DNA from: Halovivax asiaticus JCM 14624
Lineage (GTDB): Archaea > Halobacteriota > Halobacteria > Halobacteriales > Natrialbaceae
NCBI RefSeq assembly: GCF_000337515.1
Contig: NZ_AOIQ01000015.1
Span: forward strand, 1 to 48,744
Reading direction: 5' to 3'
DNA: 48,744 nucleotides
Below are positions 3,063 to 29,584 of the stretch, one piece after another. Position numbers and translations under genes: made by a program. The notes beneath the pieces were generated by a model that made no database searches, was not told where the DNA came from, and was given only the letters and a program-made list of their open reading frames with translations. Positions within the stretch are counted from its first letter, which is position 1; every line of letters starts with the position of its first letter.

Positions 3063-3161
3063 GCCGGTATTCTCGATCCCCGGCGACCACGGATCTGTGG
3101 ACCCGGCGCAGGGAACGTCAGACGGCGGTTAGCCGACGCTGGCCTGCTATCGAACGCGGCG

Positions 3162-3202
3162 GTTCCCAGCGCCTGGGAACGATGGGCAGGTGAAAAATTC
3201 AC
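3162..3202 (+). promoter_or_regulatory. two palindromes at the promoter of the Mrp-like gene
   Basis: Bases 3162-3180 form a perfect 8-bp inverted repeat with a 3-nt loop (GTTCCCAG / CTGGGAAC). Bases 3190-3202 form a second palindrome, GTGAA-AAA-TTCAC. The second is centred 26 nt before the ATG at 3222, where the TATA element of a leaderless transcript would be, so a repressor binding there could block TBP. The first could equally be a terminator hairpin for the DDAH-like gene. Seen directly in sequence; the function is inferred. Confidence 0.4.
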
Positions 3203-3221
3203 ACACATCGAACTCGAACGC

Positions 3222-4484
3222 ATGGCGCCACGAACCGACGACGAGATTCGCCGAGCGGTTGTCGACCAGCTTCGAACGGTCGAGCTGCCGGGTGGAGATC
3301 CGATCGCCGAGGGGATCATCGAAACCGTCCGTGCCGACGACGGCATCGTGACACTCACCGTCGCGTTCGATCGACTCGACCAGCGGACGGCCGAGCGCGT
3401 CGCTGATCAGCTCCGGGGCGCCGGTCTGTCGACGGCGGGCGTCGACCACGTCCGGCTCGAAGCCGTCGACGCCGCGGCGCCGGCGTCCGGGCTGGCGATC
3501 ACCGGCGTCGATTCCGTGCTCGCGGTCGCCAGCGCGAAAGGCGGCGTCGGAAAAACGACGGTGACGGCCGGCCTCGCTCGCGCGCTCCATGCCGCCGGGC
3601 TCGACGTCGCGGTCTTCGACGCCAACGTCTACGCGCCCGACCTCCCGGACCTGCTGGGGGTGACGGGTCCGGTTCCGCAGACGCCCGCCGGCCGACTGCA
3701 GCCGGTCGACGCCGACGGGATCGAGGTCGTGAGTCTGGAACTGATCGCCGACGATGGGCCGACCGCCTGGCGCGGTGCGATGGTTCACGACGTCCTCACG
3801 GACCTCGTAGAAGATGCCGCCTGGGACGACCGGGACGTGCTTCTCGTCGACCTTCCGCCTGGGATCGGCGACGCCGTCTACACGATCGTCCAGCAGGCGC
3901 CCCTGGACGGCGGATTGTTGGTCACCACGCCGACCGATGCGGCCGTCCGGGCCGCCGAACGGACGGGTGCCCTGTTCGCGGCGAACGACGTCGATACGAT
4001 CGTGGTTCCGAACATGGTCGCGACCGACGCGGACCGCGGACCGTTCGACGACTGGGACGGTGCTCCCCGGATCGATGCTGCGGCCACAGCCGCGCCGGTC
4101 CCGTTCGATCCGTCGCTCCGGGAGCCGACGGCGCGTTCGTTCGCCGACCCGACGACGCCCGGCGCGCGGGCCATCGCCGCCCTCGGCGAGACGGTCGCTT
4201 CGTTCCGCGAGGAGAGGGCCGGGCCGCAGCCGCTCGCCGACGCCATCGACCTTCGGGGGTTGCCGCCCGCCGCACGCAGGCGACAGGCGATGGGCGAACT
4301 GGGCCGCGAAACGGCGATTACGCTCCGTCTCCGTCACGACCCGTCGGCGCTGGTCGCGGACGTCGAGGCGGCCCTCGAACGGGGTGATCGTCGCCTCGCG
4401 GAAACGACGGCGACCGATCTCGGGCGGGACGGCTGGCGCCTCGATCTCGCGGCCGAACCGGCGGAACCGCCGGTGCTAGAGTGA
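3222..4484 (+). CDS. Mrp/NBP35-like P-loop ATPase with N-terminal MIP18 domain, lacking the CxxC pair
   Basis: A 420-aa Mrp/ApbC-like ATPase, the family that carries and inserts Fe-S clusters. Residues 1-80 look like a MIP18 (DUF59) domain. The deviant Walker A SAKGGVGKTT is at residues 104-113, followed by the VFDANVYAPDLP switch and Walker B VLLVDLPPGIGD near residue 210. In standard Mrp proteins the sequence after the conserved NM carries CPxC cysteines that hold the cluster; here residues 264-278 read NMVATDADRGPFDDW with no Cys. A roughly 90-residue C-terminal extension follows residue 330. The gene precedes the molybdoenzyme operon, separated by a 258-bp leader with its own TATA-like boxes, so co-regulation is possible but not shown. 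It may help assemble the many clusters of the downstream enzyme, or it may have become a regulator. Confidence 0.82.
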   Translation: MAPRTDDEIRRAVVDQLRTVELPGGDPIAEGIIETVRADDGIVTLTVAFDRLDQRTAERVADQLRGAGLSTAGVDHVRLEAVDAAAPASGLAITGVDSVLAVASAKGGVGKTTVTAGLARALHAAGLDVAVFDANVYAPDLPDLLGVTGPVPQTPAGRLQPVDADGIEVVSLELIADDGPTAWRGAMVHDVLTDLVEDAAWDDRDVLLVDLPPGIGDAVYTIVQQAPLDGGLLVTTPTDAAVRAAERTGALFAANDVDTIVVPNMVATDADRGPFDDWDGAPRIDAAATAAPVPFDPSLREPTARSFADPTTPGARAIAALGETVASFREERAGPQPLADAIDLRGLPPAARRRQAMGELGRETAITLRLRHDPSALVADVEAALERGDRRLAETTATDLGRDGWRLDLAAEPAEPPVLE

Positions 4485-4545
4485 CGCGAGACCGGTCGGC
4501 GCTGGAACCGACAGTCGGTGGAGCGGCCGACCTTCGATTACCGTC

Positions 4546-4614
4546 AATATAACCATCCACTATATCGAGGTTTTCGCCCCCGTCGTCCCCGGGAAATGGG
4601 AACCGTCGGACGAC
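4546..4614 (+). promoter_or_regulatory. promoter region of the molybdoenzyme operon
   Basis: Between the Mrp-like gene and the catalytic subunit there are two TATA-like stretches, AATATAA at 4546-4552 and CTATATC around 4560-4566. They are followed by an inverted repeat GTCGTCC (4582-4588) / GGACGAC (4608-4614) placed about where transcription would start. The distance to the ATG at 4743 implies a leader of roughly 150 nt. Such a placement suits a redox or oxygen-responsive regulator, but no known operator consensus is recognised. Confidence 0.35.
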
Positions 4615-4742
4615 GTTAATTCCTTCCTGTTGAAGCGTGGGATGTATGTTGCACAGGCGATCACAAACCGACCGACCCGACCGTCGGAGCGTCGCGCGGC
4701 TGGTCGCTGAGTCCATGGGTGTCACCATCGCGGGGTGGGACC

Positions 4743-7700
4743 ATGGGTGAGGATGGCGAGCTCGAACTGAGCCGCCGGGAACTGGGCGCTGCGGCCGCGG
4801 GAACGGCCGTCGCGTCCGGTCTCGGGATCCTGGGCTACCGTCGACTGACGCGTGAGGGGGACCCGGGCGAGGACGGTCCGATGAACCCGCTGGCGGAGTA
4901 CCCCAACGAGGGGTGGGATCAGAAGTATCGCGACATCTGGGAGCCCGACGACTCCTTCGTGCTTACCTGTACGCCAAACGACACGCACAACTGCTACCTC
5001 GAGGCCACCGTCAAGAACGACCAGATCACTCGTCTGGGTCCGTCGATGAACTACGGCGAGGCGATGGATCTCGACGGGAACCAGGCCTCCCAGCGCTGGG
5101 ACCCGCGGGTCTGTAACAAGGGGCTGGCGATGGTCGAACGGTTCTACGACGAACGTCGGGTCAAGGCCCCGATGGTTCGCGAGGGATTCATGCAGTGGGT
5201 CGAGGACGGCTTCCCCCGCGACGCGGACGGCTCGATGCCCGAAGCGTACGCCAGGCGCGGTGAGGACGGCTTCGTCGAGGTGTCCCACGAGGAGGCTCAC
5301 GAACTCGCCGCGCGGACGTTCCTCGAACTCGCCGAGTACTACAGTGGTGAGGACGGTACGGAGTCGTTGCTCGACCAAGGCTACGACGAACGGGTCGTCG
5401 AGGAAACTCGGGGCGCCGGCGTCCGGACGATGAAGTTCCGGGGCGGCATGCCGCTTCTGGGCGTCATCAAGCTGTTCGGCCAGTATCGAAACGCCAACTC
5501 GATGGCGTTGCTCGACAACCACGTCCGCGACGTGAGCGAGGACGAGGCTCTGGGCGCGATGGGACTGGATAACTACTCCTTCCACACCGACCTGCCGCCG
5601 GGCCACACGATGGTCACCGGCCAGCAGACGGTCGACTTCGACCTCGCGAGCATCGAGTACGCCGACCACATCGTCCTCGACGGTATCAACTACCTGACAT
5701 CGAAGATGGCCGACTGTCACTGGTTGACCGAGGCTAAACTCAAGGGGTCGACGGTAACCGGGATCTTCACCGACTACAACGCGACGGCCTCGAAGTGCGA
5801 CGAGGTCGTCACGGTCCGGCCGGCGACGGATTCGGCGCTGTTCCTCGGGGCGGCGCGCATCCTCATCAAGGACGAACTGTACGACGAAGCGTACGTCCGC
5901 AAACATACGGACCTGCCGCTTCTGGTCCGGCTGGACGAGAACGAACTCCTCCGGGCGAGCGACGTCTTCGAGGGATACGAACCCGATGACCTGGAGAAGA
6001 CCGACGCCGTGGCCGGCGATGGAGACAGGCCCGGGGTCGACGTGACGGACGTCGACGAGCAGGTCATTACCGAGGAACTACGGCGCGAGTGGGGCGACTT
6101 CGTCGTTCACGACGCCGACAGCGGCGCGTTCGAACCGGTTACCCGCGACGATATCGGTGACGACTTCGAGGTGCCCGCGACGATCGAGGGCGAGTTCGAG
6201 ATCGATCTGGCCGACGGCGAGACGGTCCGCGTTCGGACCGTGTTCGATCTGATCAAAGAGTCCCTGGTCGAGACGTGGGATCTGGCGTCGACCGCCGCGG
6301 TCACGGGCACCGATCCGCAGGCGATCGAGAACCTGGCCCGGGACTTCGCCGATAACCAGCAACGTACGATGCTCCTGACCGGGATGGGGCCGAACCACTA
6401 CGCGAACGCCGATCAGCACGGCCGCGCCGCGTTCCTGCTCGCGGCGCTGACGCGAAACGTCGGCTACCGGACCGGGAACGTCGGCTCGTACTCCGGGAAC
6501 TACCGGATGGCGTACTTCAACGGCGTCAGCCAGTACGCCAACGAGGACCCGTTCGATCCGGAACTCGATCCAGCGGCACCGGCCCGGACCGACAAGCGCT
6601 GGGACGCCCACTCGGCCCACTTCTACACGAACCTCGATAAGCCGCTGACGGTCGACGGCGAGTACTTCCAGGGTGACTCGCACATGCACACGCCGACGAA
6701 GTCGCTCTGGGTGTCGGGGTCGAACTCCATCCTCGGCAACGCGAAAGGGGCCTACAAGATCATCGAGAAGGCCCTCCGGACCGGGCGCATCGAGGCCTTC
6801 TTCACCAACGAGTGGTGGTGGTCGATGACCTGCGAGTACTCCGACATCGTCTTCCCGGCGGACTCGTGGGCCGAACACCACGTCCACGACATCACCGCCT
6901 CCGTCACGAACCCCTTCATCACGACGATGCCGGAGACGGAGATCGATCGGATATACGACACCAAAAACGACGCGCAACACTACAAGGGCGTCGCCGAGAA
7001 ACTCGCGGAGTTGACGGGGGACGACCGCTTCGCCGACTACTGGGCCTTCGTCGACGAATCGGAGTACCGGGCCAAGCCCTACCTCCAGCGCATCCTCGAT
7101 CGCTCGAACGCCGTCAAGGGGTACGACATCGAGGACTTGCTGGCGGACGCTCGCGAGGGGACGCCGGCGATCATCATGACCCGGACCTACCCCAAGCACG
7201 TCGGCAACGAGCAGACGCGGGACAGTCGGCCCTGGTACACGAAGACTGGGCGGCTGGAGTTCTTCCGCGAGGAAGCGGAGTTCGCCGAGGCCGGCGAACA
7301 CATCCCGCTCCACCGGGAGCCGATGGACGCGACTCCCTACGAACCGAACGTGATCGTCGACGACAGCGACAGCCCGGTGGTCGCCCCCGAGACGCCGGAC
7401 GACCGCGGCTGGGACAGCGCGGCGACGGCCCGGGACACCAGCGACCGGCAGGTGCGCAACGTCGTTACCTCGCCGTCGGAACTGGTCGAGAGTACCCACC
7501 CGCTGACGGTCCTCGACGAGGGCTACGACTACGTCTACATGACGCCGAAGTACCGCCACGGGACCCACACCTTCGGGAGCGATCTCAAGCAGATGGCGGT
7601 CTGGTGGAGCAATTACGGCGACATGGGCCGCGAGACGGAGCGCGACTCCTTCGACGAGCGCAAGCCCTACGTCGGCGAGGGTTTCGTCGAGATGAACCCC

Positions 7701-8282
7701 GAAGACGCCCGCGAGGAGGCCCTCCAGGACGGCGACTACGTCTGGGTCGACGCCGATCCGTCCGATCGGCCGGTCCCGGGGGGCGACGCCGCCGACCCGG
7801 ACTATACGCGCGCGCTGATGCGAGTGCGGTACCAGCCGAGCCTGCCCCGCGGGGTGACCCGGAGCTGGATGAACGTCCCCCAGACGTCCCACAAGTCCTA
7901 CGGGGCCACCCAGGAGCGCGATGACGGGAAGGCCGAGGCCGAGGACACCAACTACGTGTCGATGTACCGCCAGGGCGGCCACCAGTCGGCGACGACGACC
8001 TGGCTGCGCCGAACGTGGCTCACCGACTCGATGGCCCGCAAGGACATGCTCGGACAGAACATGGACGTCGGGTTCGAGCCGGACGTCCACGCCGCCAACG
8101 GTGCACCAAAGGAGTCCTTCGTGCGGATCGAGAAGGCCGAGGACGGCGGTGTGAACGAGGCCGGCGACCCCGGGGGCAACTGGCGACCGGTCGACGAGGG
8201 CGTCCGGCCGACCCGGGAGGACGACCGAATGACCCGCTACCTGCGGGGCGATTTCACGACCGAATCGGAGGGAGGTGACTAA
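4743..8282 (+). CDS. NxrA/NarG-like molybdopterin oxidoreductase catalytic subunit (Tat-exported)
   Basis: A 1179-aa type II DMSO-reductase-family enzyme. The N-terminus carries a Tat signal (SRREL at residues 10-14, then an Ala/Gly-rich core), so the active site should face outside. The first Fe-S cluster motif reads C76-x3-D80-x3-C84 with C124, unlike the H-x3-C-x3-C of NarG. The stretch YSFHTDLPPGH contains Asp283, at the position of the Asp ligand to molybdenum. Motifs such as CTPNDTHNC, KFRGGMPLLG, ANSMALLD and DLPPGHTMVTGQQT match, from memory, the periplasmic nitrite oxidoreductase NxrA of Nitrospira and anammox bacteria, which is of similar length (about 1150 aa). The substrate is most likely nitrate/nitrite; related enzymes act on chlorate, selenate or hydrocarbons. 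I preferred the ATG at 4743, directly before the Tat motif, over the GTG at 4719. A Shine-Dalgarno sequence for the beta subunit overlaps its 3' end. Confidence 0.88.
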   Translation: MGEDGELELSRRELGAAAAGTAVASGLGILGYRRLTREGDPGEDGPMNPLAEYPNEGWDQKYRDIWEPDDSFVLTCTPNDTHNCYLEATVKNDQITRLGPSMNYGEAMDLDGNQASQRWDPRVCNKGLAMVERFYDERRVKAPMVREGFMQWVEDGFPRDADGSMPEAYARRGEDGFVEVSHEEAHELAARTFLELAEYYSGEDGTESLLDQGYDERVVEETRGAGVRTMKFRGGMPLLGVIKLFGQYRNANSMALLDNHVRDVSEDEALGAMGLDNYSFHTDLPPGHTMVTGQQTVDFDLASIEYADHIVLDGINYLTSKMADCHWLTEAKLKGSTVTGIFTDYNATASKCDEVVTVRPATDSALFLGAARILIKDELYDEAYVRKHTDLPLLVRLDENELLRASDVFEGYEPDDLEKTDAVAGDGDRPGVDVTDVDEQVITEELRREWGDFVVHDADSGAFEPVTRDDIGDDFEVPATIEGEFEIDLADGETVRVRTVFDLIKESLVETWDLASTAAVTGTDPQAIENLARDFADNQQRTMLLTGMGPNHYANADQHGRAAFLLAALTRNVGYRTGNVGSYSGNYRMAYFNGVSQYANEDPFDPELDPAAPARTDKRWDAHSAHFYTNLDKPLTVDGEYFQGDSHMHTPTKSLWVSGSNSILGNAKGAYKIIEKALRTGRIEAFFTNEWWWSMTCEYSDIVFPADSWAEHHVHDITASVTNPFITTMPETEIDRIYDTKNDAQHYKGVAEKLAELTGDDRFADYWAFVDESEYRAKPYLQRILDRSNAVKGYDIEDLLADAREGTPAIIMTRTYPKHVGNEQTRDSRPWYTKTGRLEFFREEAEFAEAGEHIPLHREPMDATPYEPNVIVDDSDSPVVAPETPDDRGWDSAATARDTSDRQVRNVVTSPSELVESTHPLTVLDEGYDYVYMTPKYRHGTHTFGSDLKQMAVWWSNYGDMGRETERDSFDERKPYVGEGFVEMNPEDAREEALQDGDYVWVDADPSDRPVPGGDAADPDYTRALMRVRYQPSLPRGVTRSWMNVPQTSHKSYGATQERDDGKAEAEDTNYVSMYRQGGHQSATTTWLRRTWLTDSMARKDMLGQNMDVGFEPDVHAANGAPKESFVRIEKAEDGGVNEAGDPGGNWRPVDEGVRPTREDDRMTRYLRGDFTTESEGGD

Positions 8283-8284
8283 CG

Positions 8285-9478
8285 ATGGCAACCGTCTACA
8301 ACTGGCAGATCGGCCGCGAGATGGAGTATCCCTACCCGGAAGCGCGTCCGGAGAAACAGTGGGGCGCCGTCTTCGACCTGAACAAGTGCATCGCGTGTCA
8401 GACCTGTACGCTCTCGTGTAAGACGACCTGGACGAACAACGAGGGCCAGGAGCACATGTTCTGGAACAACGTCGAGACGAAGCCCTACGGATCGTATCCC
8501 CTCCAGTGGGACGTCGAGATCCTGGATCGACTCGGCGTCAGCGAGTGGAGTTCCGACGGCGTCTACGAGGGTGATACGATCTTCGAAGCCCGCGACGTAG
8601 ACTGGGAGGACATGGCGGTCGACGGCGATCCCGAAACCATGCACGCGAAGGGGATCGAGGGGTATCGTCCCGAGAAGCGCGACTGGGCGCAACCGAACCT
8701 CGGCGAGGACGAACCCGCCGGGAAGGCCGTCGAATCGGATACCCACATCGACGGCGACCACCATCCGACGTGGTTCTTCTACCTGCCGCGGGTGTGCAAT
8801 CACTGCACGTTCGCCGCCTGCGCCGGCGGCTGTCCCGTCCAGGCTATCTACAAGCGCCAGGAGGACGGTATCGTCCTGCTCGACGAGGACAGCTGCGAGT
8901 CCTACACGGAGTGTGTCAGGGCGTGCCCGTACGGCAAGTCGATGTACAACCCCGTCGAACTGAACTCCCAGAAGTGCGTCGGCTGTTATCCGAAAGTCGA
9001 GCAGGGACGCGTTCCACAGTGTTTCGAGAACTGCCTGGGCAAGATCCGGATGCATGGGTGGGTCAACCGACCCGACGAGGCCGACCCGTCGGCCCCGGTC
9101 GATTATCTGGTCCACGAGGCCGAAGTCGCCCTTCCGCTGTACCCGCAACTGGGCCTGGAGCCCAACGTCTACTACATCCCGCCGATCAACGTGCCGACGG
9201 ACTACTTGACGCAAATGTTCGGCCCGCGCGTCGAGGACGCCCAGGAAACCTACCGGCGCGCTCGTCGCGGCGACGAGGAGTACCGAAAACTGCGCGCAGT
9301 TCTCCACCTGATGGGATCGACCGAGTGGCGCATCGAGGCGTTCGAGGTCACCGAGGACGAAGCGATCGGCTACGACGCCGACGGCTCGACGGTCGCCCGC
9401 GTCCCCATGACGGAACCGCAGTACGAACGCGAGCGCTTCGATGCGGACAACGACGTCTACCGACTCGACATCACGTAA
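8285..9478 (+). CDS. NxrB/NarH-like four-cluster iron-sulfur subunit
   Basis: A 397-aa electron-transfer partner starting 2 nt after the catalytic subunit, behind a near-perfect Shine-Dalgarno (GGAGGTGA, 8271-8278). Sixteen cluster positions are visible: C35/C38/C41/C45; C171/C174/C179/C183; C204/Y207/C210/C214; C231/C234/C246/C250. In the third group the second Cys is replaced by Tyr207, so it probably holds a [3Fe-4S] cluster, as in NarH and NxrB. The N-terminus (VYNWQIGREMEYPYP), the WNNVETKPYGSYP block and the ALPLYPQLGLEPNVYYIPP block match, from memory, Nitrospira-type NxrB rather than classical haloarchaeal NarH. It has no signal peptide and would be carried out by the Tat signal of its partner. 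It passes electrons between the molybdenum site and a third subunit that is not encoded here. Confidence 0.9.
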   Translation: MATVYNWQIGREMEYPYPEARPEKQWGAVFDLNKCIACQTCTLSCKTTWTNNEGQEHMFWNNVETKPYGSYPLQWDVEILDRLGVSEWSSDGVYEGDTIFEARDVDWEDMAVDGDPETMHAKGIEGYRPEKRDWAQPNLGEDEPAGKAVESDTHIDGDHHPTWFFYLPRVCNHCTFAACAGGCPVQAIYKRQEDGIVLLDEDSCESYTECVRACPYGKSMYNPVELNSQKCVGCYPKVEQGRVPQCFENCLGKIRMHGWVNRPDEADPSAPVDYLVHEAEVALPLYPQLGLEPNVYYIPPINVPTDYLTQMFGPRVEDAQETYRRARRGDEEYRKLRAVLHLMGSTEWRIEAFEVTEDEAIGYDADGSTVARVPMTEPQYERERFDADNDVYRLDIT

Positions 9479-9480
9479 CC

Positions 9481-10479
9481 ATGTCAGATCCGACCCTTCC
9501 CACCTCGAAACCCGACGCGTCCACGGGCGATCCGGATCGATCCGGCGCCGACTGTGACGAGTCAGCGCCCGAGACCGGGCAGTCGACGTTCGAGTCTGGC
9601 GAGTCCACGCCCGAACCCGGCCAGTCCGCGTCCGAACCTGATCGGTCGACCACGCCATCATACCGGTCCACGACTGCGGCCGAGCACGTTCACCGCGCAC
9701 GCCTGTACAAACTCGTCTCGCTAGCCTTCGACCGACCAGGCGAACCGCTCGCGGCGGCGCTGCGTTCTGAAACGTTCGCCGAGCAGGTACGCGAGTCGGC
9801 GACCGCGCTCGACGGCGCGACCGAAGCGGGGACCGAGGGCCGCGACCTCGCGGACGACGCGACGGCCGTCGCCGAGGCGAGTCCAACCGAGTCCGCCGGC
9901 GTCGACGACCTCGCCGCGGACTGGGCCGCGCTGTTTGGCTTCGAAGCCGGCGGCGACGTCTCCCAGTACCAGGCCGCCTACGCGCCGGGGACGCTCGTCA
10001 CGAACACGGACCTGCTTGCCGACATTGCCGGCTTCTACGCTGCGTTCGACCTCTCGACGGCTGACGACGGGTCCGAACGCGTCGACCACCTCTGCCTCGA
10101 ACTCGAGTACGTCTCCCACCTCGCCCTGCAGACCGCGTACCTGCTGCGTCGGGGCGACGACGCCGGCGTGGAAGTCGTGGCCGGGGCCCAGGCGGACTTC
10201 CTCGAAGATCACCTCGGCCGCTGGACGGGCCGGTACCGTGACGCGGTCCGGGCAGACGCAGATGCCGGATTCTACCCGACGCTCGCGTCGCTGGTCGAGA
10301 CGCTGGTCACGGCCGACCTCGACCGGTTCGATCGCGATCCGGATCCCTATCCCGAGACGCCGCCGGCACCCCTCGCCGAGCGCCGGGACGACGAGGGCGA
10401 TTTCCGGTGTGGGACCTGCGGGGTCGCGCCGTCGCCGCCTACCGCACCGTCGGAACGCTCTCCACAGGACCCGACCTGA
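9481..10479 (+). CDS. TorD/NarJ-like molybdoenzyme assembly chaperone
   Basis: A 332-aa protein starting 2 nt after the beta-subunit stop codon. From residue 65 it shows the all-helical TorD/DmsD pattern: RARLYKLVSLAFDRPGEPL at the first helix, DLAADWAALFGF, then the family-typical DHLCLELEYVSHLAL and FLEDHLGRW. Such chaperones bind the Tat signal of the catalytic subunit and hold it until the cofactor is loaded. The first 60 residues are an unusual low-complexity Ser/Thr/Pro/Glu/Asp tail with approximate repeats of the type ESxPEPGQS. The C-terminus carries a CGTC pair (FRCGTCG) that could bind metal. Its place between enzyme and mobA genes supports the role. Confidence 0.83.
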   Translation: MSDPTLPTSKPDASTGDPDRSGADCDESAPETGQSTFESGESTPEPGQSASEPDRSTTPSYRSTTAAEHVHRARLYKLVSLAFDRPGEPLAAALRSETFAEQVRESATALDGATEAGTEGRDLADDATAVAEASPTESAGVDDLAADWAALFGFEAGGDVSQYQAAYAPGTLVTNTDLLADIAGFYAAFDLSTADDGSERVDHLCLELEYVSHLALQTAYLLRRGDDAGVEVVAGAQADFLEDHLGRWTGRYRDAVRADADAGFYPTLASLVETLVTADLDRFDRDPDPYPETPPAPLAERRDDEGDFRCGTCGVAPSPPTAPSERSPQDPT

Positions 10480-10493
10480 TATAGTTCAGACGC

Positions 10494-10748
10494 ATGTCAT
10501 CACTACCTTCAGCCGCCGGCGTTTCACGGGCCGCGCTGCAGGCCCGCTCACGAACGCTCGTCAAGACGGTTGTCTACCGAATTCTGATGGTGATCGTCAC
10601 CGTCACCGTCGCGTTTTTCGTCACCGGAAACGTCACCGACGCGGCGACGATCGGCCTCGGGACGAACGTGGTGAAGACGGGCACCTACTACGGCTACGAG
10701 CGCGTCTGGGCGCACGTCGACTGGGGGCTCGCGGAGGGGGTATCGTGA
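10494..10748 (+). CDS. DUF2061 small membrane protein
   Basis: An 84-aa protein with two hydrophobic segments: residues about 25-45 (TVVYRILMVIVTVTVAFFVTG) and a weaker amphipathic helix after ATIGLGTNVVKTG. The pattern RTLVKTVVYR...TGYYGYERVWAHVDWG is that of DUF2061 proteins, small inner-membrane proteins sometimes found near sulfur or nitrogen redox genes. It starts 14 nt after the chaperone gene and its stop codon overlaps the mobA start (GTGA at 10745-10748), so it belongs to the operon. It has no haem-ligand His pairs that would make it a gamma subunit. Function unknown; it might help tether the enzyme. Confidence 0.75.
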   Translation: MSSLPSAAGVSRAALQARSRTLVKTVVYRILMVIVTVTVAFFVTGNVTDAATIGLGTNVVKTGTYYGYERVWAHVDWGLAEGVS

Positions 10749-11359
10749 CGACCGGCATCATCCTCGCCGGCGGCAGATCCCGTCGGTTCGAATCGCGGGA
10801 CAAACTTACGGCGACCATCGCCGGCCGACCGATGATCGCCCACGTCGCGGCGGCCCTCGACCCGGTAGTCGACGGTCTCGTCGTCTCCTGTCGGGCCGAT
10901 CAGGTGCTTGCGCTCGAAGACGCACTCGGGCGGAAGTCACAGTCGATCGCGTTCGTCCCCGATCGCGTTCCGGATCGGGGACCGCTCGGCGGGTTCGCGG
11001 CAGCGACCGAGGCCACCGCGAGTCGTAACGTGGCCGTCGTCGCCGGCGACATGCCGCTCGTGACTCCGTCAGTCGTCGAGGCGTTGCTATCGAATCACGC
11101 CCGTGAGTGCACCGTCCCGGTCTCGATCGAGGGAGCAGTGCAGCCGCTCTGTGCCGTGTACCGTCGGCGGCCGGCCGGAGACGCAGCCAGGGCGGCGCTC
11201 GATGCCGGCGAGCGCGCCGTTGCGACGCTACTCGACCGCCTTTCGGTCGAAACGGTCGACGGTATCGCCGCGCAGAACCGACCGGGTCCCTTCTTCGACG
11301 TCGACACGCCGGCCGACCGCCAGCGGGTCGCGTCCCTCCTCGCAGGTGGTGTGGCGTGA
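10745..11359 (+). CDS. mobA: molybdenum cofactor guanylyltransferase MobA
   Basis: A 204-aa nucleotidyltransferase that attaches GMP to molybdopterin, making the MGD form used by DMSO-reductase-family enzymes. The N-terminal signature LAGGRSRRFESRDK (residues 7-20) is the MobA GTP-binding loop, although the usual Gly before the Asp-Lys region is replaced by Glu-Ser-Arg. Further landmarks are DRGPLGG, the metal-binding VVAGDMPLV, QPLCAVYRR and the C-terminal FFDVDTPAD. The GTG start at 10745 overlaps the stop of the DUF2061 gene by 4 bp, and its own stop overlaps mobB the same way, so translation is probably coupled. The linkage to the molybdoenzyme explains its presence here. Confidence 0.88.
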   Translation: MTTGIILAGGRSRRFESRDKLTATIAGRPMIAHVAAALDPVVDGLVVSCRADQVLALEDALGRKSQSIAFVPDRVPDRGPLGGFAAATEATASRNVAVVAGDMPLVTPSVVEALLSNHARECTVPVSIEGAVQPLCAVYRRRPAGDAARAALDAGERAVATLLDRLSVETVDGIAAQNRPGPFFDVDTPADRQRVASLLAGGVA

Positions 11360-11835
11360 AGGTGCTGGGGATCGTGGGGCACAGCGACGCGGGAAAGACG
11401 ACACTTCTCGAGCGACTCGTTCCCGCGTTCGGTTCGACGACCCGCGTCGCGACCGTGAAATCGATTCATCACGACATCGAACTCGACACGCCCGGCTCGG
11501 ACACGCATCGGCACGCGACGGCCGGTGCGGAAACCGTCGTCGGGATAACCCCCTCGCGGACGTTCGAGATCAGGCGGCGTCCCGGGGGCGGTGAGTCCGC
11601 GGCGAAACTGTTCGCGCTTCGGAATCGCCTGATCCGACTTCGGGAGCGCGACTACGATGTCGTCCTCGTCGAAGGGTTCCACCGCGCTCGGTGTCCAAAA
11701 CTCGTCGTCGGTGAGCGAGTCCCCGACGAGACGGCACCGAGGGTCCTCGCCCACGTTGCGGGACCGGATGCCCTCGACGTCCAGGCGCTCGTCGCGACGG
11801 TGCTGTCGGGAGAGGCGGACGAACGAGACGGGTGA
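11356..11835 (+). CDS. mobB: MobB-type molybdopterin-guanine dinucleotide biosynthesis GTPase
   Basis: A 159-aa P-loop protein. Walker A is GHSDAGKTT (residues 8-16). The family pattern of strand-switch-strand follows: VATVKSIHHD, TPGSDTHRHATAGAE (the DTxxHxxAGA MobB motif) and the Walker-B-like VVLVEGFHR with the following KLVV. MobB aids MobA in guanylation or delivery of the cofactor. The GTG start at 11356 shares four bases (GTGA) with the mobA stop. This is the last gene of the molybdoenzyme operon; the next gene is on the other strand, so transcription must end between 11836 and 11900, where I see no clear hairpin. Confidence 0.86.
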   Translation: MKVLGIVGHSDAGKTTLLERLVPAFGSTTRVATVKSIHHDIELDTPGSDTHRHATAGAETVVGITPSRTFEIRRRPGGGESAAKLFALRNRLIRLRERDYDVVLVEGFHRARCPKLVVGERVPDETAPRVLAHVAGPDALDVQALVATVLSGEADERDG

Positions 11836-11900
11836 CTGCGGGTGTGTGCGGGGTCCGTCGGACAGCACTCCGTGATACGTCGCGGCGAACCGGACCGGCG

Positions 11901-21127: not shown

Positions 21128-21790
21128 ATGTCACGAAGCGGAACGCTAGAGAAGGCACAGATCATGATCGTCAACGGGAAACAGGGGGGTGAGACGATCG
21201 AGTGCTCGTTCAATCCGAACTCGTACACGGTAGAAAAGAGCGTCAACTACGGTGAGATGAAAGCGACGGGGTCGGGTGCGTCGATCATGCAGTTCGTCGA
21301 CGGAAACGCCGAACGTCTCTCGATGGAGTTGTTTTTCGATACGACCGACGAGCTCGACGAGGACGGTGCGACGGTCGACGTTCGCGAGCGGTATACCAAA
21401 CACATCGACACGCTGCTGTCGGTCGACGGCGAACTCCACGCGCCACCAGTCTGCCGGTTCGTCTGGGGCGACGGTATCACCTTTACCGCGCTGCTCGAAC
21501 GGGCGAACAAGCAATTCACGAAGTTTCTGCCGAGCGGTGTCCCGATCCGGGCGCGCGTCTCGGTCGTCTTCACGGAGTACAAGACGGCCGACTACCACAA
21601 GTCGGAGGTCTCGCCCGAGTCGACGGACAAGACCAAGGTCTGGACGGTGACGGAGGGCGATACGCTCTGGTTGATCGCCTCGGAGGAGTACGGCGACCCC
21701 TCCCACTGGCGGACGATCGCCGAGCAGAACGACATCGAGAACCCGCGGGCGATCGCGGCGGGTGAGCGACTCGAACTGCCGCCGCTGTAA
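21128..21790 (+). CDS. contractile injection system LysM tube/baseplate protein (Pvc7-like)
   Basis: A 220-aa protein starting at the base after the previous stop codon. Residues 1-165 match the N-terminal domain of CIS tube-associated proteins: ECSFNPNSYTVEKSVNYGE, then SMELFFDTTDELDEDG, VRERYTKHIDTLLSVDG, PPVCRFVWGDGITFTALLERANKQFTKFLPSGVPIRARV. Residues 172-220 form a LysM domain (VTEGDTLWLIASEEYGDPSHWRTIAEQN...IAAGERLELP). In Photorhabdus PVC and related systems this protein (Pvc7, T4 gp53/54-like) joins the inner tube to the baseplate hub. It is the first clearly recognisable structural gene here, and it implies that an inner tube is encoded somewhere. Confidence 0.85.
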   Translation: MSRSGTLEKAQIMIVNGKQGGETIECSFNPNSYTVEKSVNYGEMKATGSGASIMQFVDGNAERLSMELFFDTTDELDEDGATVDVRERYTKHIDTLLSVDGELHAPPVCRFVWGDGITFTALLERANKQFTKFLPSGVPIRARVSVVFTEYKTADYHKSEVSPESTDKTKVWTVTEGDTLWLIASEEYGDPSHWRTIAEQNDIENPRAIAAGERLELPPL

Positions 21791-21804
21791 TCGAGCGACG
21801 CCAC

Positions 21805-22827
21805 ATGAGTACGATAGACAACCACCCACGATACTCACCCCGCTTCACCGTCGACGTCGGCGGCCAGACGTTTCAGGAGCCGGGCGGTCGAATCGCCGAC
21901 CTCGTCGTCGAAACCTCCTTCGAGGGTGCCGATCGGTTTTCGTTCACCCTGAACTATCCGTTCGACGAGGAACTCGACGAGTTCGCGGGACTGAACTGGG
22001 ACGACTTCGCCATCGGGACGGACGTCGATATCTCGATGGGATACGGCGACGACGGGCAGCTCACGCCACTGCTGTCGGGAAAGATTCAGTCGGTTTCGGG
22101 GGAGTTCACGCTCGACCGCGGCCCGTCGGTCCAACTCTCGGGGTACGGACTGCTCTGGGCGCCGATGCAGGGGACGCGATCCGACTCGTGGTCGGAGACG
22201 ACGGTGGGCGCGGCCGTCGAAGACGTCCTCTCGTCGTACGCGTTCTCCTCGATCGACGTCCAGAGTGCCGATATCAAGCGAGAGAAACTCATTCAGGACG
22301 GGAAGACCGATTACCGCTTTATCCAGGATCTGGCGGCGACCTACGGCTTCGAATTTTACGCGACGCGCGAGACGGTTCGGTTCGTCCCGCGATCGAGCGC
22401 CGTCGACGACGACCCGGCCGTCGAACTCTGGTACGGAGAAGCACTGCACGACTTCTTCGGCGAGTGCACCCAGCAGAAACAGGACTACCGGGTCGAGGTT
22501 CGGTCGTGGGACGTCGGGAAACGAGAGGAGATCACGGCGACCGCGGGCAGCGCGAGCGCGGCTCACAAAGAGGTGTTCAGAGTGCCAGCCATGTCACGAG
22601 ACGAGGCCAAACGCATCGCAACGACGAAACACAACCAGTACGCAGACGGGATCGTCACCGGCCACGGTGAGGCAGACGGCATTCCCGAGATTCGGGCCGG
22701 GGAGACGATCGAACTGGCCGAACTCGGCTCCAGATTCTCCGGACGGTATCACGTGACCAAGGCGACCCACCGGATGGGTGCCTCGGGCTACCGGACATCG
22801 TTCGAGGTCGTGGAGGTGCCGGCATGA
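21805..22827 (+). CDS. gp27-like baseplate hub protein (late control D / VgrG N-terminal domain)
   Basis: A 340-aa protein of the phage late-control-D family, which forms the trimeric hub below the tube. Recognisable features are SPRFTVDVGGQTF at the start, the strand pair around GTDVDISMGYG and LLSGKIQSVSGEF, the helix-strand KTDYRFIQDLAATYGFEFYA (equivalent to the tDyeFLxRLAExxGf motif of VgrG), and the C-terminal VTGHGEADGIPEIRAGETIELAELGSRFSG...TKATH. In many CIS the hub and spike are one polypeptide (Pvc8/VgrG); here the spike is a separate gene whose ATG overlaps this stop (ATGA, 22824-22827), so they are translated together. Confidence 0.87.
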   Translation: MSTIDNHPRYSPRFTVDVGGQTFQEPGGRIADLVVETSFEGADRFSFTLNYPFDEELDEFAGLNWDDFAIGTDVDISMGYGDDGQLTPLLSGKIQSVSGEFTLDRGPSVQLSGYGLLWAPMQGTRSDSWSETTVGAAVEDVLSSYAFSSIDVQSADIKREKLIQDGKTDYRFIQDLAATYGFEFYATRETVRFVPRSSAVDDDPAVELWYGEALHDFFGECTQQKQDYRVEVRSWDVGKREEITATAGSASAAHKEVFRVPAMSRDEAKRIATTKHNQYADGIVTGHGEADGIPEIRAGETIELAELGSRFSGRYHVTKATHRMGASGYRTSFEVVEVPA

Positions 22828-23564
22828 CGCGTGCGGGCGTCTTCGACGGCGAGACTTCCGACGGTGGGATTCAGGGCGTCGTCGTCGGTATCGTCACCGA
22901 CAACGAGGATCCGAAGGATCTCGGTCGGGTCAAGCTCAAGTTCCCCTGGCGCGACGCCGACGACGAGAGCTACTGGGCGCGGATCGCGACGACCATGACC
23001 GGGGACGGCTATGGCTCGTACTTCCTCCCGGAGGTCGACGACGAGGTCCTCGTCGCGTTCGAGAACGGCGACATTCACACGCCGTTCGTCGTCGGCTCGC
23101 TCTGGAACGGCAAGCAAAAGCCACCGCAGACGAACACCGAGGGGAAAAACGACGTTCGCGAGATCCGCTCGCGGAGCGACCACGCCATCACCTTCGACGA
23201 CGCCGACGAGGGCTCGATCACGATCGAGACGAGCGGCGGACACGAGATCCGCATCGACGATTCGAGCGGGTCGGAGACGGTTTCGATCAGCGACGAGAAG
23301 GGCGACAACGCCATCACGCTCGATTCGTCGGGCGGTAGTGTCTCCATCGAGGCGGCGAAGGAACTCGACCTGAAAGCGCCCACGATCACGGTCAACGGGA
23401 CAAAGAAGCTGAAGCTCTCCGGCGGCACCGCCGTCGACGTCTCGAGCAAGAACAAGGTCTCGCTCTCGAGTAACGCGCAGGTCGCGATCTCGTCGTCCGG
23501 CTTGATGAAGATCGATTCCACGGGCCCGATGACGCTCAAAGGGGCCCTGATCCAGCTCAACTGA
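22824..23564 (+). CDS. gp5/VgrG-like spike protein with OB fold and beta-helix (baseplate V)
   Basis: A 246-aa spike protein. Residues about 18-110 are the OB-fold domain typical of baseplate V: GVVVGIVTDNEDPKDLGRVKLKFPW, YWARIATTMTGDGYGSYFLPEVDDEVLVAFENGD and TPFVVGSLWNGKQKPP. Residues about 115-246 have the regular strand rhythm of an intertwined beta-helix needle (SITIETSGGHEIRIDD, NAITLDSSGGSVSIEAAKELDLKAPTITVNG...). It would trimerise under the hub and carry the PAAR tip encoded next. There is no lysozyme domain, unlike T4 gp5. It overlaps the hub gene by 4 bp. Confidence 0.87.
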   Translation: MTRAGVFDGETSDGGIQGVVVGIVTDNEDPKDLGRVKLKFPWRDADDESYWARIATTMTGDGYGSYFLPEVDDEVLVAFENGDIHTPFVVGSLWNGKQKPPQTNTEGKNDVREIRSRSDHAITFDDADEGSITIETSGGHEIRIDDSSGSETVSISDEKGDNAITLDSSGGSVSIEAAKELDLKAPTITVNGTKKLKLSGGTAVDVSSKNKVSLSSNAQVAISSSGLMKIDSTGPMTLKGALIQLN

Positions 23565-23574
23565 GGACATCTCT

Positions 23575-23865
23575 ATGAAACCAGCAGCCAGACTCGGCGA
23601 CCAGACCGCACACGGAACGCCACTGACCGGTACCGCCAGTCCGAACGTCCTGATCGGCAAAAAGCCCGCGTGGCGCGCGCTGGGTGACGTCCACACCTGT
23701 CCGTTGACGACGGGTGTCGTCCCCCACGTGGGCGGCCCCGTCGTCGCGGGGAGTACGTCCGTCCTGATCAACAAACTCCCCGCCGCCAGGATGGGTGATA
23801 CGATCGTCGAGAGCGGGCCGCCGAACACGATCGCGGCCGGCTGTCCCAGCGTCCTCATCGGCTAA
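23575..23865 (+). CDS. PAAR-domain spike tip protein
   Basis: A 96-aa PAAR protein that caps the spike and makes it sharp. The PAAR-type repeats are visible: MKPAARLGDQTAHGTP, then ALGDVHTCPLTTGVVPHVGG and LPAARMGDTIVESGPPNTIAAGCPSVLIG. His near residue 13, His/Cys in DVHTC and the Cys in AAGCP are the likely metal ligands. There is no C-terminal extension, so it carries no fused effector. It lies 10 nt after the spike gene with a purine-rich site (GAGGA), and 2 nt before the gp25 gene. Confidence 0.88.
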   Translation: MKPAARLGDQTAHGTPLTGTASPNVLIGKKPAWRALGDVHTCPLTTGVVPHVGGPVVAGSTSVLINKLPAARMGDTIVESGPPNTIAAGCPSVLIG

Positions 23866-23867
23866 CC

Positions 23868-24266
23868 ATGGCTGACGAATTTCTCGGCTCCGGCTGGCGG
23901 TACCCGGTTCGACCGGACCATCGCGGCGATCTCGCCCTCTCGTCCGGTGAGGACGACATTCAGGAAGCGATTCGGCTCATCCTGGGGACGGCGAAGGGTG
24001 AGCGACTCATGCGTCCGGAGTTCGGCTGTGATATCCACGACCACGTCTACTCGTCGGCGTCGCCGGCGACGCTGAATCTGATCGAGAACTCCGTCCACGA
24101 GTCGCTGGTTCGCTGGGAGCCGCGGATCGACGTCGAGAACGTCTCGGCGCGGACCGACGCGGACGAGCCCAACCGGGTCCTGATCGAGATCGACTACCGG
24201 GTCCGGACGACGAACAGTCTCGCGAACATGGTCTACCCGTTCCACATCACCGAAGGCGATGGGTGA
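23868..24266 (+). CDS. gp25-like baseplate wedge protein (GPW/gp25)
   Basis: A 132-aa baseplate wedge protein. The family pattern is clear: LGSGWRYPVRPDHRGDLALSSGEDDIQEAIRLILGT, then AKGERLMRPEFGCDIHDHVYSS, where ERxxRPEFG is the gp25 core (the EPR-like motif needed for baseplate and sheath contact), and ALxNSVHESLVRWEPRIDVENV. In T4-like tails gp25 starts sheath polymerisation, so its presence suggests that a contractile sheath is part of the complete system. The reading frame ends 6 nt before the GTG of the J gene. Confidence 0.9.
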   Translation: MADEFLGSGWRYPVRPDHRGDLALSSGEDDIQEAIRLILGTAKGERLMRPEFGCDIHDHVYSSASPATLNLIENSVHESLVRWEPRIDVENVSARTDADEPNRVLIEIDYRVRTTNSLANMVYPFHITEGDG

Positions 24267-24272
24267 GCACGC

Positions 24273-27200
24273 GTGAGTCAGGGACCACGACTGGGTGACC
24301 GCGACCAGGAGGCGGTGTTCGAGACGCTACTCGAGCGTGCCGACGCCTACACTGAGGCGTGGGACCCACGGACGCCCGACGCCGGCCGGGCGCTGGTTCG
24401 GATCTTCTCGCAGTTCGAGGCGGATCTCCGGACCAGACTGGCAGAGGTACCGGAGAAACACCGACTCGCGTTCCTCGACGCGCTCGATTTCGACCGGCGG
24501 CCGCCCCAGGCCGCACGCGTCCCCCTCACGTTTCAGGTATCGACCGATCTGGATCGGAACGTGGCGATTCCGGCGGGGACGCAGGCGGTCGCCGAGACGG
24601 GGTCGGGGGAGCCGCAGGTGTTCGAACTGCCCCAGGAGGGCGGCTTCGAGGCGACCGGCGCGAGGCTCGCCGACCTCGTCGCCGTCGACCCCTCGACGGA
24701 TCGGATCGTCGCACACGACGAACTCGTCGACGACGATGGTCCCGTCACGCTCTTCGACGGGGAGAATCGGCAGGCGCACGTCCTCTATCTCGGGAGCGAC
24801 GCTGCGCTCACGCTCGATTCGGGGTCGTCGTTCACGCTCTCGCTGACGACCGCGGACGACGCCGATCGGGTATTCGACGCAGTCGAGTGGGAGTACTACG
24901 GTGTCGATTCCGACGGCGACGAGGGCTGGCACCCGCTCACCGAGTCCACGGAGGGCGAGTGGGCCGACGAGGACGTCGGCGTCGAACGCTTACAGGAGCG
25001 ACTTCAGTCGCGATCGGCGACGGGTGATCGGTTCGAGGCGACTGACAGCCGCCACGCCGCCCGGACCTTTCGGTTGCCGGGGTCGACCGTCGAACACACC
25101 GTCGCCGGGACCACGAGCCGGTGGATTCGCTGTCGCCGGCGTGAGGCGTCGCGATCGCTCTCGGCGACGATTCGGTCGCTTGCGATCCACGTCGGCTGTC
25201 CCGACGGACGCGAACCGGATCAGTTGCTGTCGAACGACGTGCCGCTGTCGCCGACGGAGACGCTTCGGCCGTTCGGACGGATGCCCCATCCGCCGGCGAC
25301 GTTCTACGTCTCGTGTGAAGAAGCGTTCACGAAACCCGGCGGTGTCGTCGAACTCGAGTTCGTCCCACCATCGGACGGTGACGGCGCTGTGTCGGCGACC
25401 GATACGGGCGGAGCCGACAACGACGCCGGGCTGGCAGCCGGCGGCGTCGTCGGCGGACCGCCACACCTCTCCTGGGAGTACTGGAACGGCGACGGCTGGA
25501 CGCGACTGACGTCGGTGACCGACGAGACGGACGCGCTGACGACGGGCGGGCGCGTCAGTTTCGACGTACCCGACGATATCGAGCCGACGACCGTCTCGGG
25601 CCACGAGAACGTCTGGATACGCAGCCGGCTCGTCAGCGGCTCGTACGGCCAGCCGCAGTTCGACGTCACCGACGACGGCGAGCGCGGACGGCGTGTTTCC
25701 GACGCGGACGAGCCGGTCTTCGAGGAGTTGGTGGTCCACTACGACCGCGGCGAGCGCCCGTTCGAGGCGGTGTTTCGACACAACAACGCTTCGTACAGCG
25801 AGGATCTCGCTCCCCGCGACGGCTCGTTCGCCGCGTTCCGTGATCTGGCCGACGAGACGCAGACGGTTTACGTCGGCTTCGACGAACCGCTGCGAGACGG
25901 TCCCCTGTCGCTGTTCGTCCCGGTCGAGGACGCTCCGTACCCGCCCTCGTTCGACACCGCCGTCCAGTGGGAGTACTGTCCCGATCCGGCCAGCGGCGAG
26001 TGGGAACCGCTCGATGTCGTCGACCGGACCGCTGGCCTCACCGAGCGCGGGATGGTCACGTTCACGCTCCCGACCCCGACCCGGCCACTGTCGCTGTTCG
26101 GCCGGGAGCGCCACTGGATCCGCGCTCGCGTGACCAAAGACGAGTTCGACCTCTCGGCCGGTTCGATGGCGAACGCCTCGACGTCGCCAGCTTCCGACGA
26201 GGCGACTGCGGCGTCGGATCGGACGGCACCGCCGCCCGTTCTCGACGGCCTCTACAACAACACGGGGTGGGCGTACAACACGACGACGATCGAAGACGAA
26301 ATCCTCGGTTCGAGCGACGGCTCACACGAGCAGTCCTTCGGGTGCTCGCACGCGCCGCTGATCGACGTCGACGTGTGGGTGGACGAACACGCGACGCTTT
26401 CGGCCGGGGAGCGCCGACGGTTGCGCGAGACCCGTCCAGCCGACGTCGATCCCGAGTACGACGCACGCGGGGAGTGCAGCGCCTTCTGGGTTCGCTGGCA
26501 GGCCGTCGAGGACTTCCTCGATTCGGGGCCGATGGACCGGCACTACGTTTCCAATCGAACGCTCGGCGTGATCCAGTTTGGCGACGGCGACGCCGGTGCG
26601 ATCCCGCCGAGTGGCACCGACAACGTCCGGGCGACGTTCACGACCGGTGGTGGCCAGGATGGGACGGTCGAGGCCGGCGCGGTGACGACGCTCAACAGTT
26701 CGATCGCCCTCGTCGAATCCGTCACGAATCCGATGGCGGCCGACGGTGGCGCCGACACCGAGTCGACGGCGACGCTCGTCTCCCGGGCGACGAACCGACT
26801 CAAACATCGCGGGCGCGCCGTCACGCCGAGCGATTACGAGCAGGTGGCGATGGCGACGTTCCCGGAACTCGCGGTCGTCTCGTGTGATCCGTCGCTCGAT
26901 CGCCGAGCGGGCGAGTCCCGGGTGACGGTCCTGATCGTCCCGCAGACCGACCGGGAGAAGCCGGTTCCCTCCGTCGCACTCAAACACCGCGTTCGCGAGG
27001 CGCTCTACGACCGGGCACCCGCGTCGGTCGCGGCGGACGACGGTGCCGATATCGTCGTTCGTGGACCCGGCTACTGCGAGGTGTCGGTCGAGGCGACGGT
27101 CGAGGCGACGGGGGTCAAGAGCGTCTCACAGCTCAAGCGAACGATCTCGTCACGACTCGACGCCTACCTCCACCCGCTGTCGGGCAACGACGGGGACGGA

Positions 27201-27416
27201 TGGCCGTTCGGCGAGTTACCGGAACCACAGGTACTCGCCGACATCGTGGCCGACGTGGAGGCTGTCGCGGACGTCCTCGCGTTCGACGTGACGCTCTCCG
27301 GGTCCGGTGACCGTCGAACCCTCTCGCGTCACGACGAGCACCGATCGCTCCCCCGGGATACGCTCCCGTGCAGTGGGTCGCACGACCTGACGGTCACGAT
27401 GGAGGTGGACCGATGA
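24273..27416 (+). CDS. baseplate J-like protein (large, Pvc11-type)
   Basis: A 1047-aa baseplate wedge protein, starting with GTG. The N-terminus is a conserved helix block (ALVRIFSQFEADLRTRLAEVPEKHRLAFLDAL) followed by a long region of irregular beta repeats (WEYYGVDSDGDEGWHPL, SWEYWNGDGWTRLT, WEYCPDPASGEWEPL), the insertion typical of CIS J proteins. The J core lies near residues 768-900: FGDGDAGAIPPSGTDN, TTGGGQDGTVEAGAVTT, RGRAVTPSDYEQVAM and TVLIVPQTDR. The C-terminal part has the DAYLHPLSGNDGDGWPFGELP motif that is repeated in the second J gene. It assembles the wedges around the hub. The stop codon overlaps the next small ORF by ATGA (27413-27416). Confidence 0.87.
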   Translation: MSQGPRLGDRDQEAVFETLLERADAYTEAWDPRTPDAGRALVRIFSQFEADLRTRLAEVPEKHRLAFLDALDFDRRPPQAARVPLTFQVSTDLDRNVAIPAGTQAVAETGSGEPQVFELPQEGGFEATGARLADLVAVDPSTDRIVAHDELVDDDGPVTLFDGENRQAHVLYLGSDAALTLDSGSSFTLSLTTADDADRVFDAVEWEYYGVDSDGDEGWHPLTESTEGEWADEDVGVERLQERLQSRSATGDRFEATDSRHAARTFRLPGSTVEHTVAGTTSRWIRCRRREASRSLSATIRSLAIHVGCPDGREPDQLLSNDVPLSPTETLRPFGRMPHPPATFYVSCEEAFTKPGGVVELEFVPPSDGDGAVSATDTGGADNDAGLAAGGVVGGPPHLSWEYWNGDGWTRLTSVTDETDALTTGGRVSFDVPDDIEPTTVSGHENVWIRSRLVSGSYGQPQFDVTDDGERGRRVSDADEPVFEELVVHYDRGERPFEAVFRHNNASYSEDLAPRDGSFAAFRDLADETQTVYVGFDEPLRDGPLSLFVPVEDAPYPPSFDTAVQWEYCPDPASGEWEPLDVVDRTAGLTERGMVTFTLPTPTRPLSLFGRERHWIRARVTKDEFDLSAGSMANASTSPASDEATAASDRTAPPPVLDGLYNNTGWAYNTTTIEDEILGSSDGSHEQSFGCSHAPLIDVDVWVDEHATLSAGERRRLRETRPADVDPEYDARGECSAFWVRWQAVEDFLDSGPMDRHYVSNRTLGVIQFGDGDAGAIPPSGTDNVRATFTTGGGQDGTVEAGAVTTLNSSIALVESVTNPMAADGGADTESTATLVSRATNRLKHRGRAVTPSDYEQVAMATFPELAVVSCDPSLDRRAGESRVTVLIVPQTDREKPVPSVALKHRVREALYDRAPASVAADDGADIVVRGPGYCEVSVEATVEATGVKSVSQLKRTISSRLDAYLHPLSGNDGDGWPFGELPEPQVLADIVADVEAVADVLAFDVTLSGSGDRRTLSRHDEHRSLPRDTLPCSGSHDLTVTMEVDR

Positions 27417-27634
27417 GCGACCGGTCGATCGCTCACCGAGGGCGACGACTGTCGGCGTCGTTGGCTGCTGACGTGCCGTCATCAGTATCGATTGCTACCG
27501 ACGTGCCGTCGGTGTCGATGGCCGTCGACACACCGTCGGTGCCGGTAGCCGCCGATATGCTGGCGTGTTATCGATACCTGCCGGCACCGGCTCGCACGAG
27601 TGCCGACACGGAGGTGCCAGTCACATGGGAATAG
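27413..27634 (+). CDS. small repeat-bearing ORF between the two baseplate J genes
   Basis: A 73-aa ORF overlapping its upstream neighbour by 4 bp and the downstream start by 10 bp. That double overlap is the main argument that it is translated. The middle consists of three imperfect 9-10-residue repeats (AADVPSSVSI, ATDVPSVSM, AVDTPSVPV; bases 27464-27547) followed by an AADM start of a fourth. The N-terminus is basic (HRGRRLSAS), the C-terminus Pro/Ala/Thr-rich. No family recognised. It might be a structural linker or a remnant expanded by slippage of the 27-30-bp unit. Confidence 0.45.
   Translation: MSDRSIAHRGRRLSASLAADVPSSVSIATDVPSVSMAVDTPSVPVAADMLACYRYLPAPARTSADTEVPVTWE
27464..27550 (+). 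repeat. imperfect 27-30-bp tandem repeat
   Basis: Three tandem units (27464-27493, 27494-27520, 27521-27547) share the core GACGTGCCGTC or its variant GACACACCGTC, each encoding A-x-D-x-P-S-V. Unit lengths stay multiples of three, so the reading frame is kept. Confidence 0.6.
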
Positions 27635-29583: not shown

Positions 29584-29584
29584 G

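Follow-up and report, generated by a model that had tools for sequence, protein, structure and literature searches.

A haloarchaeal sister lineage of nitrite oxidoreductase, predicted to act outside the cell and probably serving as a nitrate reductase of denitrification

In the nitrite oxidoreductase (NXR) of Kuenenia, the FS0 cluster of the alpha subunit is held by C67, D71, C75 and C115, and N70 is the substrate residue (PMC8387239). Four residues, D71, E527, N312 and K917, distinguish NXR from nitrate reductase (NAR) (PMC12300631), and NXRs are reversible (PMC8387239; PMC12300631). The NXR/NAR clade of Nitrotoga and Hydrogenobacter includes nitrate reducers, archaea among them, and nitrite-oxidising archaea have been raised as a possibility (PMC6050957). 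In haloarchaea, a survey listed six 'longer' NarG proteins from Natrialbaceae and saw no difference in them (PMC8400030), another report mentioned two exceptions to the histidine pattern of FS0 (PMC8301774), and a larger NXR tree showed Halobacteriales as two paraphyletic clades (PMC12758564).

We analysed a 48,744-nucleotide stretch of DNA (the window; contig NZ_AOIQ01000015.1) from Halovivax asiaticus JCM 14624. Its forward strand encodes an NxrA-like Mo-bisMGD catalytic protein (alpha, 4743..8282, 1179 aa, with the Tat signal SRRELG), followed by an NxrB-like protein (beta, 8285..9478, 397 aa, with 15 conserved cysteines for four Fe-S clusters). The alpha start was placed at ATG 4743, and a GTG stands in frame at 4719. 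An initial annotation had described this pair as NXR-like; its coordinates for both reading frames were right, and all five sequence blocks that it quoted were found. When alpha was searched against the whole PDB, the sole full-length match was Kuenenia NxrA (7b04_B, E 3e-214, residues 48-1171), while NarG, PcrA and EbdA gave partial matches at E 4e-46 or weaker. The best match of beta in the structure search was NxrB (E 6e-97). The pairwise identity of alpha was highest with Kuenenia NxrA (37.6% over 1082 columns), followed by a Halobaculum-type haloarchaeal enzyme (33.8%), Haloferax-type NarG (26.2%) and E. coli NarG (25.0%); the corresponding values for beta were 48.0%, 47.3%, 40.5% and 33.3%. 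The pair also has the traits of the type II DMSO reductase family, namely an aspartate ligand to Mo, FS0 together with four clusters in beta, and a TorD-type chaperone.

A search of 391 Halobacteria genomes with this enzyme returned three discrete bands of similarity. The first, which we call clade A, comprises proteins of ~1180 aa at 63-88% identity; group B, of ~1070 aa, lies at ~35%, and group C, at ~30%, corresponds to Haloferax-type NarG. By hand count, 33 Halobacteria genomes carry clade A, the majority from the window's own family; six or more of them have two copies, and in two (G076, G126) it occurs alongside group B. Carriers include Halopiger djelfimassiliensis, Halopiger goleimassiliensis, Haloterrigena salina, Natrialba spp., Natronorubrum texcoconense, Natronococcus jeotgali, N. 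amylolyticus, N. occultus (on a plasmid), Halobiforma nitratireducens and Halorubrum trapanicum. Matches in a phylum-wide sample of 393 genomes were confined to the window's own order. We also looked for more NXR/NAR sequences elsewhere: plasmids queried with Kuenenia NxrA gave mostly haloarchaeal matches and no further NXR, and viral contigs gave no matches.

Alpha trees covering clade A, groups B and C, Kuenenia NxrA, PcrA and NarG were built in IQ-TREE under LG+G4 (29 rows, 1000 columns) and under a C20 mixture (19 rows). Clade A was sister to Kuenenia NxrA at 100/100 (LG+G4) and 100/99 (C20), Kuenenia being the sole NXR reference and one with a long branch and divergent composition. Under both models group B branched next, and PcrA, group C and NarG fell on the opposite side. 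The initial annotation had set against its own proposal a placement of the enzyme inside the ordinary haloarchaeal NarGH clade; in the alpha tree with NarG, Kuenenia NxrA and haloarchaeal NarG, that grouping of clade A with group C was rejected (AU test, p 2.6e-4), and the proposed separate, NXR-like lineage was supported. AU tests similarly rejected clade A with group B (p 7e-7) and group B with NxrA (p 1.5e-5). The beta tree united A, B and NxrB at 92/94, with their internal order unsettled.

The ligands of FS0 agree with this placement. The motif CTPNDTHNC (4968..4994, forward strand; alpha residues 76-84) supplies C76, N79, D80 and C84, which together with C124 align to Kuenenia C67, N70, D71, C75 and C115. 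The NXR pattern of three cysteines, one aspartate and an adjacent asparagine is thus present, and the form C-x-P-N-D-T-H-x-C was found in all 33 clade-A sequences that cover the site (35 sequences in total) and otherwise, among the sequences compared, only in Kuenenia NxrA. Group C, E. coli NarG and PcrA have H-x-V-N-C-T-G-x-C instead, and the His-ligand pattern HxVNCTGSC is absent from clade A; the motif of group B is CHPNCTQSC. Two inserts, ~41 residues together, are likewise restricted to clade A and Kuenenia NxrA among the sequences compared: over Kuenenia positions 165-268, both have 104 aligned residues, as against 61-63 in all others. Judged from this alignment, the two inserts are support for joining clade A to NxrA that is independent of the tree. 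The sequence blocks on which the initial annotation had relied were of uneven value. CxPNDTHxC, K-x-RGGM-x-LLG and, in beta, VxNWxxGRxxEYPY do set the lineage apart from ordinary haloarchaeal NarGH; TDLPPGH and WNNVETKP do not, the cores DLPPG and NNVETKP occurring also in Haloferax-type and/or E. coli enzymes.

Around the active site, D283 (codon 5589..5591, forward strand), aligned to Kuenenia D275, is the predicted Mo ligand; K936, N277 and H281 are also common to NXR, and all 15 beta cysteines are conserved. The four positions that separate NXR from NAR give a mixed picture. At D71 and K917 (Lys in 35/35) clade A agrees with NXR, but at the N312 position all 35 sequences have Ser or Thr, Thr being the NAR state. 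At the E527 position all 35 have Met (M548 in the window), unlike both reference enzymes, E. coli NAR having Ala. The full NXR set of E527, N312 and K917 was therefore not found in clade A, and this mosaic indicates that its site is not a plain NXR active site.

The two genes lie within a cassette (3063..11885) that was delimited by tblastn/blastn synteny with congeners. Directly upstream of alpha is an Mrp/NBP35-type P-loop NTPase, a probable Fe-S cluster carrier (3222..4484; PF10609, E 5e-48). Beta is followed by a TorD/NarJ-like chaperone of type II DMSO reductases (9481..10479, start ATG 9481; TIGR03482, E 2e-24; PF02613, E 8e-16), a small DUF2061 membrane protein (10494..10748; PF09834, E 6e-16), the molybdenum cofactor guanylyltransferase MobA (10745..11359, GTG start; PF12804, E 3e-34) and MobB (11356..11835; PF03205, E 3e-27), all on the forward strand. 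The cassette contains these seven genes and nothing else. In three genomes of the same genus (G003, G001, G002) the flanking DDAH-like and thioesterase genes are only ~50-65 bp apart, so that the window has ~8.8 kb extra between them. Three of the four congeners lack the cassette, and its gain in the window's lineage is a simpler reading than its loss in the congeners; no direct repeats of 9 or more bases were found between the two end regions compared. In the fourth genome (G004, L110:8190-14600) the same gap is filled by nosZ (TIGR04244, 725.8 bits against a cut-off of 625), nosD and an ABC ATPase that is probably nosF, and it is possible that the gap is an exchange site for denitrification modules. 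Across 17 clade-A loci the order Mrp NTPase, alpha, beta was invariant, with beta ~2.7 kb downstream in one of them (L035). Clustering of genes, which may overlook divergent or misframed ones, recognised TorD in 10, MobB in 9 and DUF2061 in 6 of the 17. Mrp and TorD are also members of ordinary haloarchaeal nar operons.

Two other features were noted near the site or elsewhere in the window. Adjoining the cassette site in G001 (L108:9907-12113), a transposase-like ORF with another ORF beside it lies between the thioesterase and HTH genes; the second ORF may encode an eCIS-associated (DUF4157-like) protein, by a reading of its sequence alone. Apart from the nitrate-enzyme cassette, the window holds a contractile injection (phage-tail-like) cluster at 21128-31774, with genes for a LysM protein, VgrG-type proteins, two TIGR02243 baseplate proteins and a CIS12 family protein.

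The initial annotation had placed the enzyme outside the cell, and a twin-arginine signal conserved in nearly all complete clade-A members argues for this location. Within the main subclade, identity averages 89.5% across the Tat segment, 40% in the linker that follows and 75% in the mature protein; such conservation of the segment is unusual for a signal peptide that is removed. In a sister subclade, four sequences (L071, L072, L073, L043) have a lipobox (FAGC/LAGC) after the Tat signal, and their alpha may be a lipoprotein. Taken together, these features suggest a membrane tether formed by alpha itself. A role of alpha as the anchor would also fit the lack of a recognised gamma subunit: a search for the heme-b subunit NxrC (EbdC-like) gave no PF09459 match in the window's own genome, where a very divergent one is possible, and no EbdC-like gamma was recognised in the 17 clade-A clusters. 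Nor was a Rieske protein (NarB) or cytochrome b (NarC) recognised in these clusters, unlike group C operons. NarC had no match in the window's own genome; among 18 other clade-A genomes searched, only G194 gave one, at 39%. Since neither a heme-b gamma nor a NarC-type cytochrome b was found in the window's own genome, the electron donor would be halocyanin or a membrane partner.

The accompanying genes bear on the direction of catalysis. In none of the 33 clade-A genomes did a Haloferax-type NarG query exceed 42% identity, while the positive controls gave 68-81% matches in 5/5 genomes. The window's own genome has alpha as its sole PF00384 match, two copper nitrite reductases (NirK) over the family cut-off, and a qNOR at 57% identity. 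Within the family, NirK is present in 25/29 clade-A genomes and in 38/77 others (Fisher p 7e-4, from counts made by hand and with kinship ignored). Both enzymes are widespread among haloarchaea, which makes the co-occurrence of NirK and qNOR with clade A supportive rather than decisive. Beside the clade-A cluster of N. occultus are qNOR and ric, and DmsR-type regulators flank the Natrialba clusters. Near the cluster of Natrialba sp. SSL1 (L036:6991-8202) we also noted a TIGR04347 pseudo-SAM/SPASM protein, similar to heme d1/NirJ enzymes, with DUF2249 genes alongside. Htg. salina carries clade A, and its genus, Haloterrigena, is reported to include members that reduce nitrate to nitrite without gas formation (PMC8530250).

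Taken as a whole, the missing Haloferax-type NarG, the NirK and qNOR of the genome and the nos cluster at the same site in a congener favour nitrate reduction over nitrite oxidation. The best reading, which we consider probable, is that an extracellular enzyme of the NXR clade works as the nitrate reductase of denitrification. This direction is deduced from the accompanying genes and not from the protein; sequence alone is insufficient to decide it.

A physiological nitrite oxidoreductase would instead oxidise nitrite outside the cell, perhaps in a mixotrophic metabolism, with protons set free there and electrons going to a high-potential carrier and a terminal oxidase. The sister position to anammox NxrA points this way, as do the NXR-like FS0 aspartate, Lys917 equivalent and inserts, and nitrite-oxidising archaea have been predicted for the wider clade from work on Nitrotoga (PMC6050957). 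We nevertheless regard this as unlikely. The NXR residues E527 and N312 are not kept, the window's own genome lacks an NxrC-like gamma subunit, and denitrification genes are found both in that genome and, in a congener, at the same chromosomal site. Moreover, as the clade-A genomes lack a Haloferax-type nitrate reductase, the enzyme would probably be needed for nitrate reduction as well. The chance that clade-A haloarchaea oxidise nitrite, or use the enzyme either way depending on oxygen, likewise appears small; if they did, they would be nitrite-oxidising archaea with an NXR homologue that lacks a heme gamma subunit.

It is more doubtful still that the enzyme was recruited from the NXR lineage as a reductase of chlorate, perchlorate, selenate or another oxyanion. 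The type II family is promiscuous, and Met548, which stands near Mo in place of Glu or Ala in all 35 clade-A sequences, would be compatible with another substrate. Against this, PcrA and a chlorate-reductase-like protein encoded beside a chlorite dismutase gene branch elsewhere, clade A is associated with nitrogen-oxide genes, and chlorite dismutase was not recognised among the genes listed around clade-A clusters, as judged from the gene listings alone. That this is ordinary haloarchaeal NarGH, long merely through annotation or local divergence, can scarcely be upheld: a survey did equate the longer Natrialbaceae NarG with the others (PMC8400030), but such an identity is ruled out by the tree and AU test (p 2.6e-4), the 26% identity to Haloferax-type NarG, the different FS0 ligands and the inserts.

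For the preferred role in nitrate reduction, the cassette suggests the following course. Mrp would supply Fe-S clusters, MobA and MobB would make the bis-MGD cofactor, and TorD would retain alpha until the alpha-beta pair is folded, after which the pair would be exported jointly by the Tat route on the signal of alpha. At the outer membrane face, Mo (with D283 as its ligand and N79 as the substrate contact) would trade electrons with FS0, bound in part by Asp, and with the four clusters in beta. The enzyme would most likely act in these heterotrophs as a respiratory nitrate reductase, providing nitrite for NirK and qNOR.

Named strains of Halopiger, Haloterrigena, Natronococcus and Natrialba, among others, carry a well-supported sister lineage of NxrA. 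These strains can be grown, so the direction of catalysis, and with it the question of nitrite-oxidising archaea, is directly testable. What surveys call 'NarG' in haloarchaea comprises at least three separate enzymes, which differ in their FeS ligands and electron routes, and the packaging of clade A as a self-contained cassette bears on the spread of denitrification in salt lakes.

Among the sequences compared, clade A most resembles Kuenenia stuttgartiensis NXR-AB (PDB 7B04), with which it shares co-linear alpha and beta subunits over their full length, all beta cysteines, the CxPNDTHxC motif with its aspartate, Asn and Asp near Mo, the Lys917 equivalent and the two inserts. It differs in being only 37.6%/48% identical, in having Met for E527 and Ser/Thr for N312, in the lack of a recognised NxrC heme subunit or NXR-T, and in its occurrence in archaeal heterotrophs with denitrification genes. 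The periplasmic NXR/NAR sister clade of Nitrotoga and Hydrogenobacter is similarly of type II, has a Tat-exported alpha, as is predicted for clade A, and is close to NXR (PMC6050957). Haloferax-type pNarGH is also a type II alpha-beta pair, Tat-exported as clade A is predicted to be, with TorD, Mrp NTPase and MobA genes nearby, but it is only 26%/40% identical, has a histidine ligand to FS0, an alpha of ~980 aa and no inserts, and its operon includes Rieske, cytochrome b and EbdC-like gamma genes. Group B (L048:8887-15158 and relatives; Halobaculum-type, ~1070 aa) is a third haloarchaeal lineage, placed between clade A with NXR and the NarG/Pcr side. Its beta N-terminus is similar to that of clade A, but its FS0 motif is CHPNCTQSC; Glu and Asn are NXR-like, the Lys917 position is His, the inserts are missing, and it has an EbdC-like gamma of its own. 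We infer that the six longer NarG (PMC8400030) and the two FS0 exceptions (PMC8301774) belong to clade A. As far as we have searched, what is new is their union in one NXR-sister clade, with its ligand and insert evidence, mosaic active site and missing usual electron-transfer partners, together with the exclusion of ordinary NarG and the finding of a cassette and its empty site.
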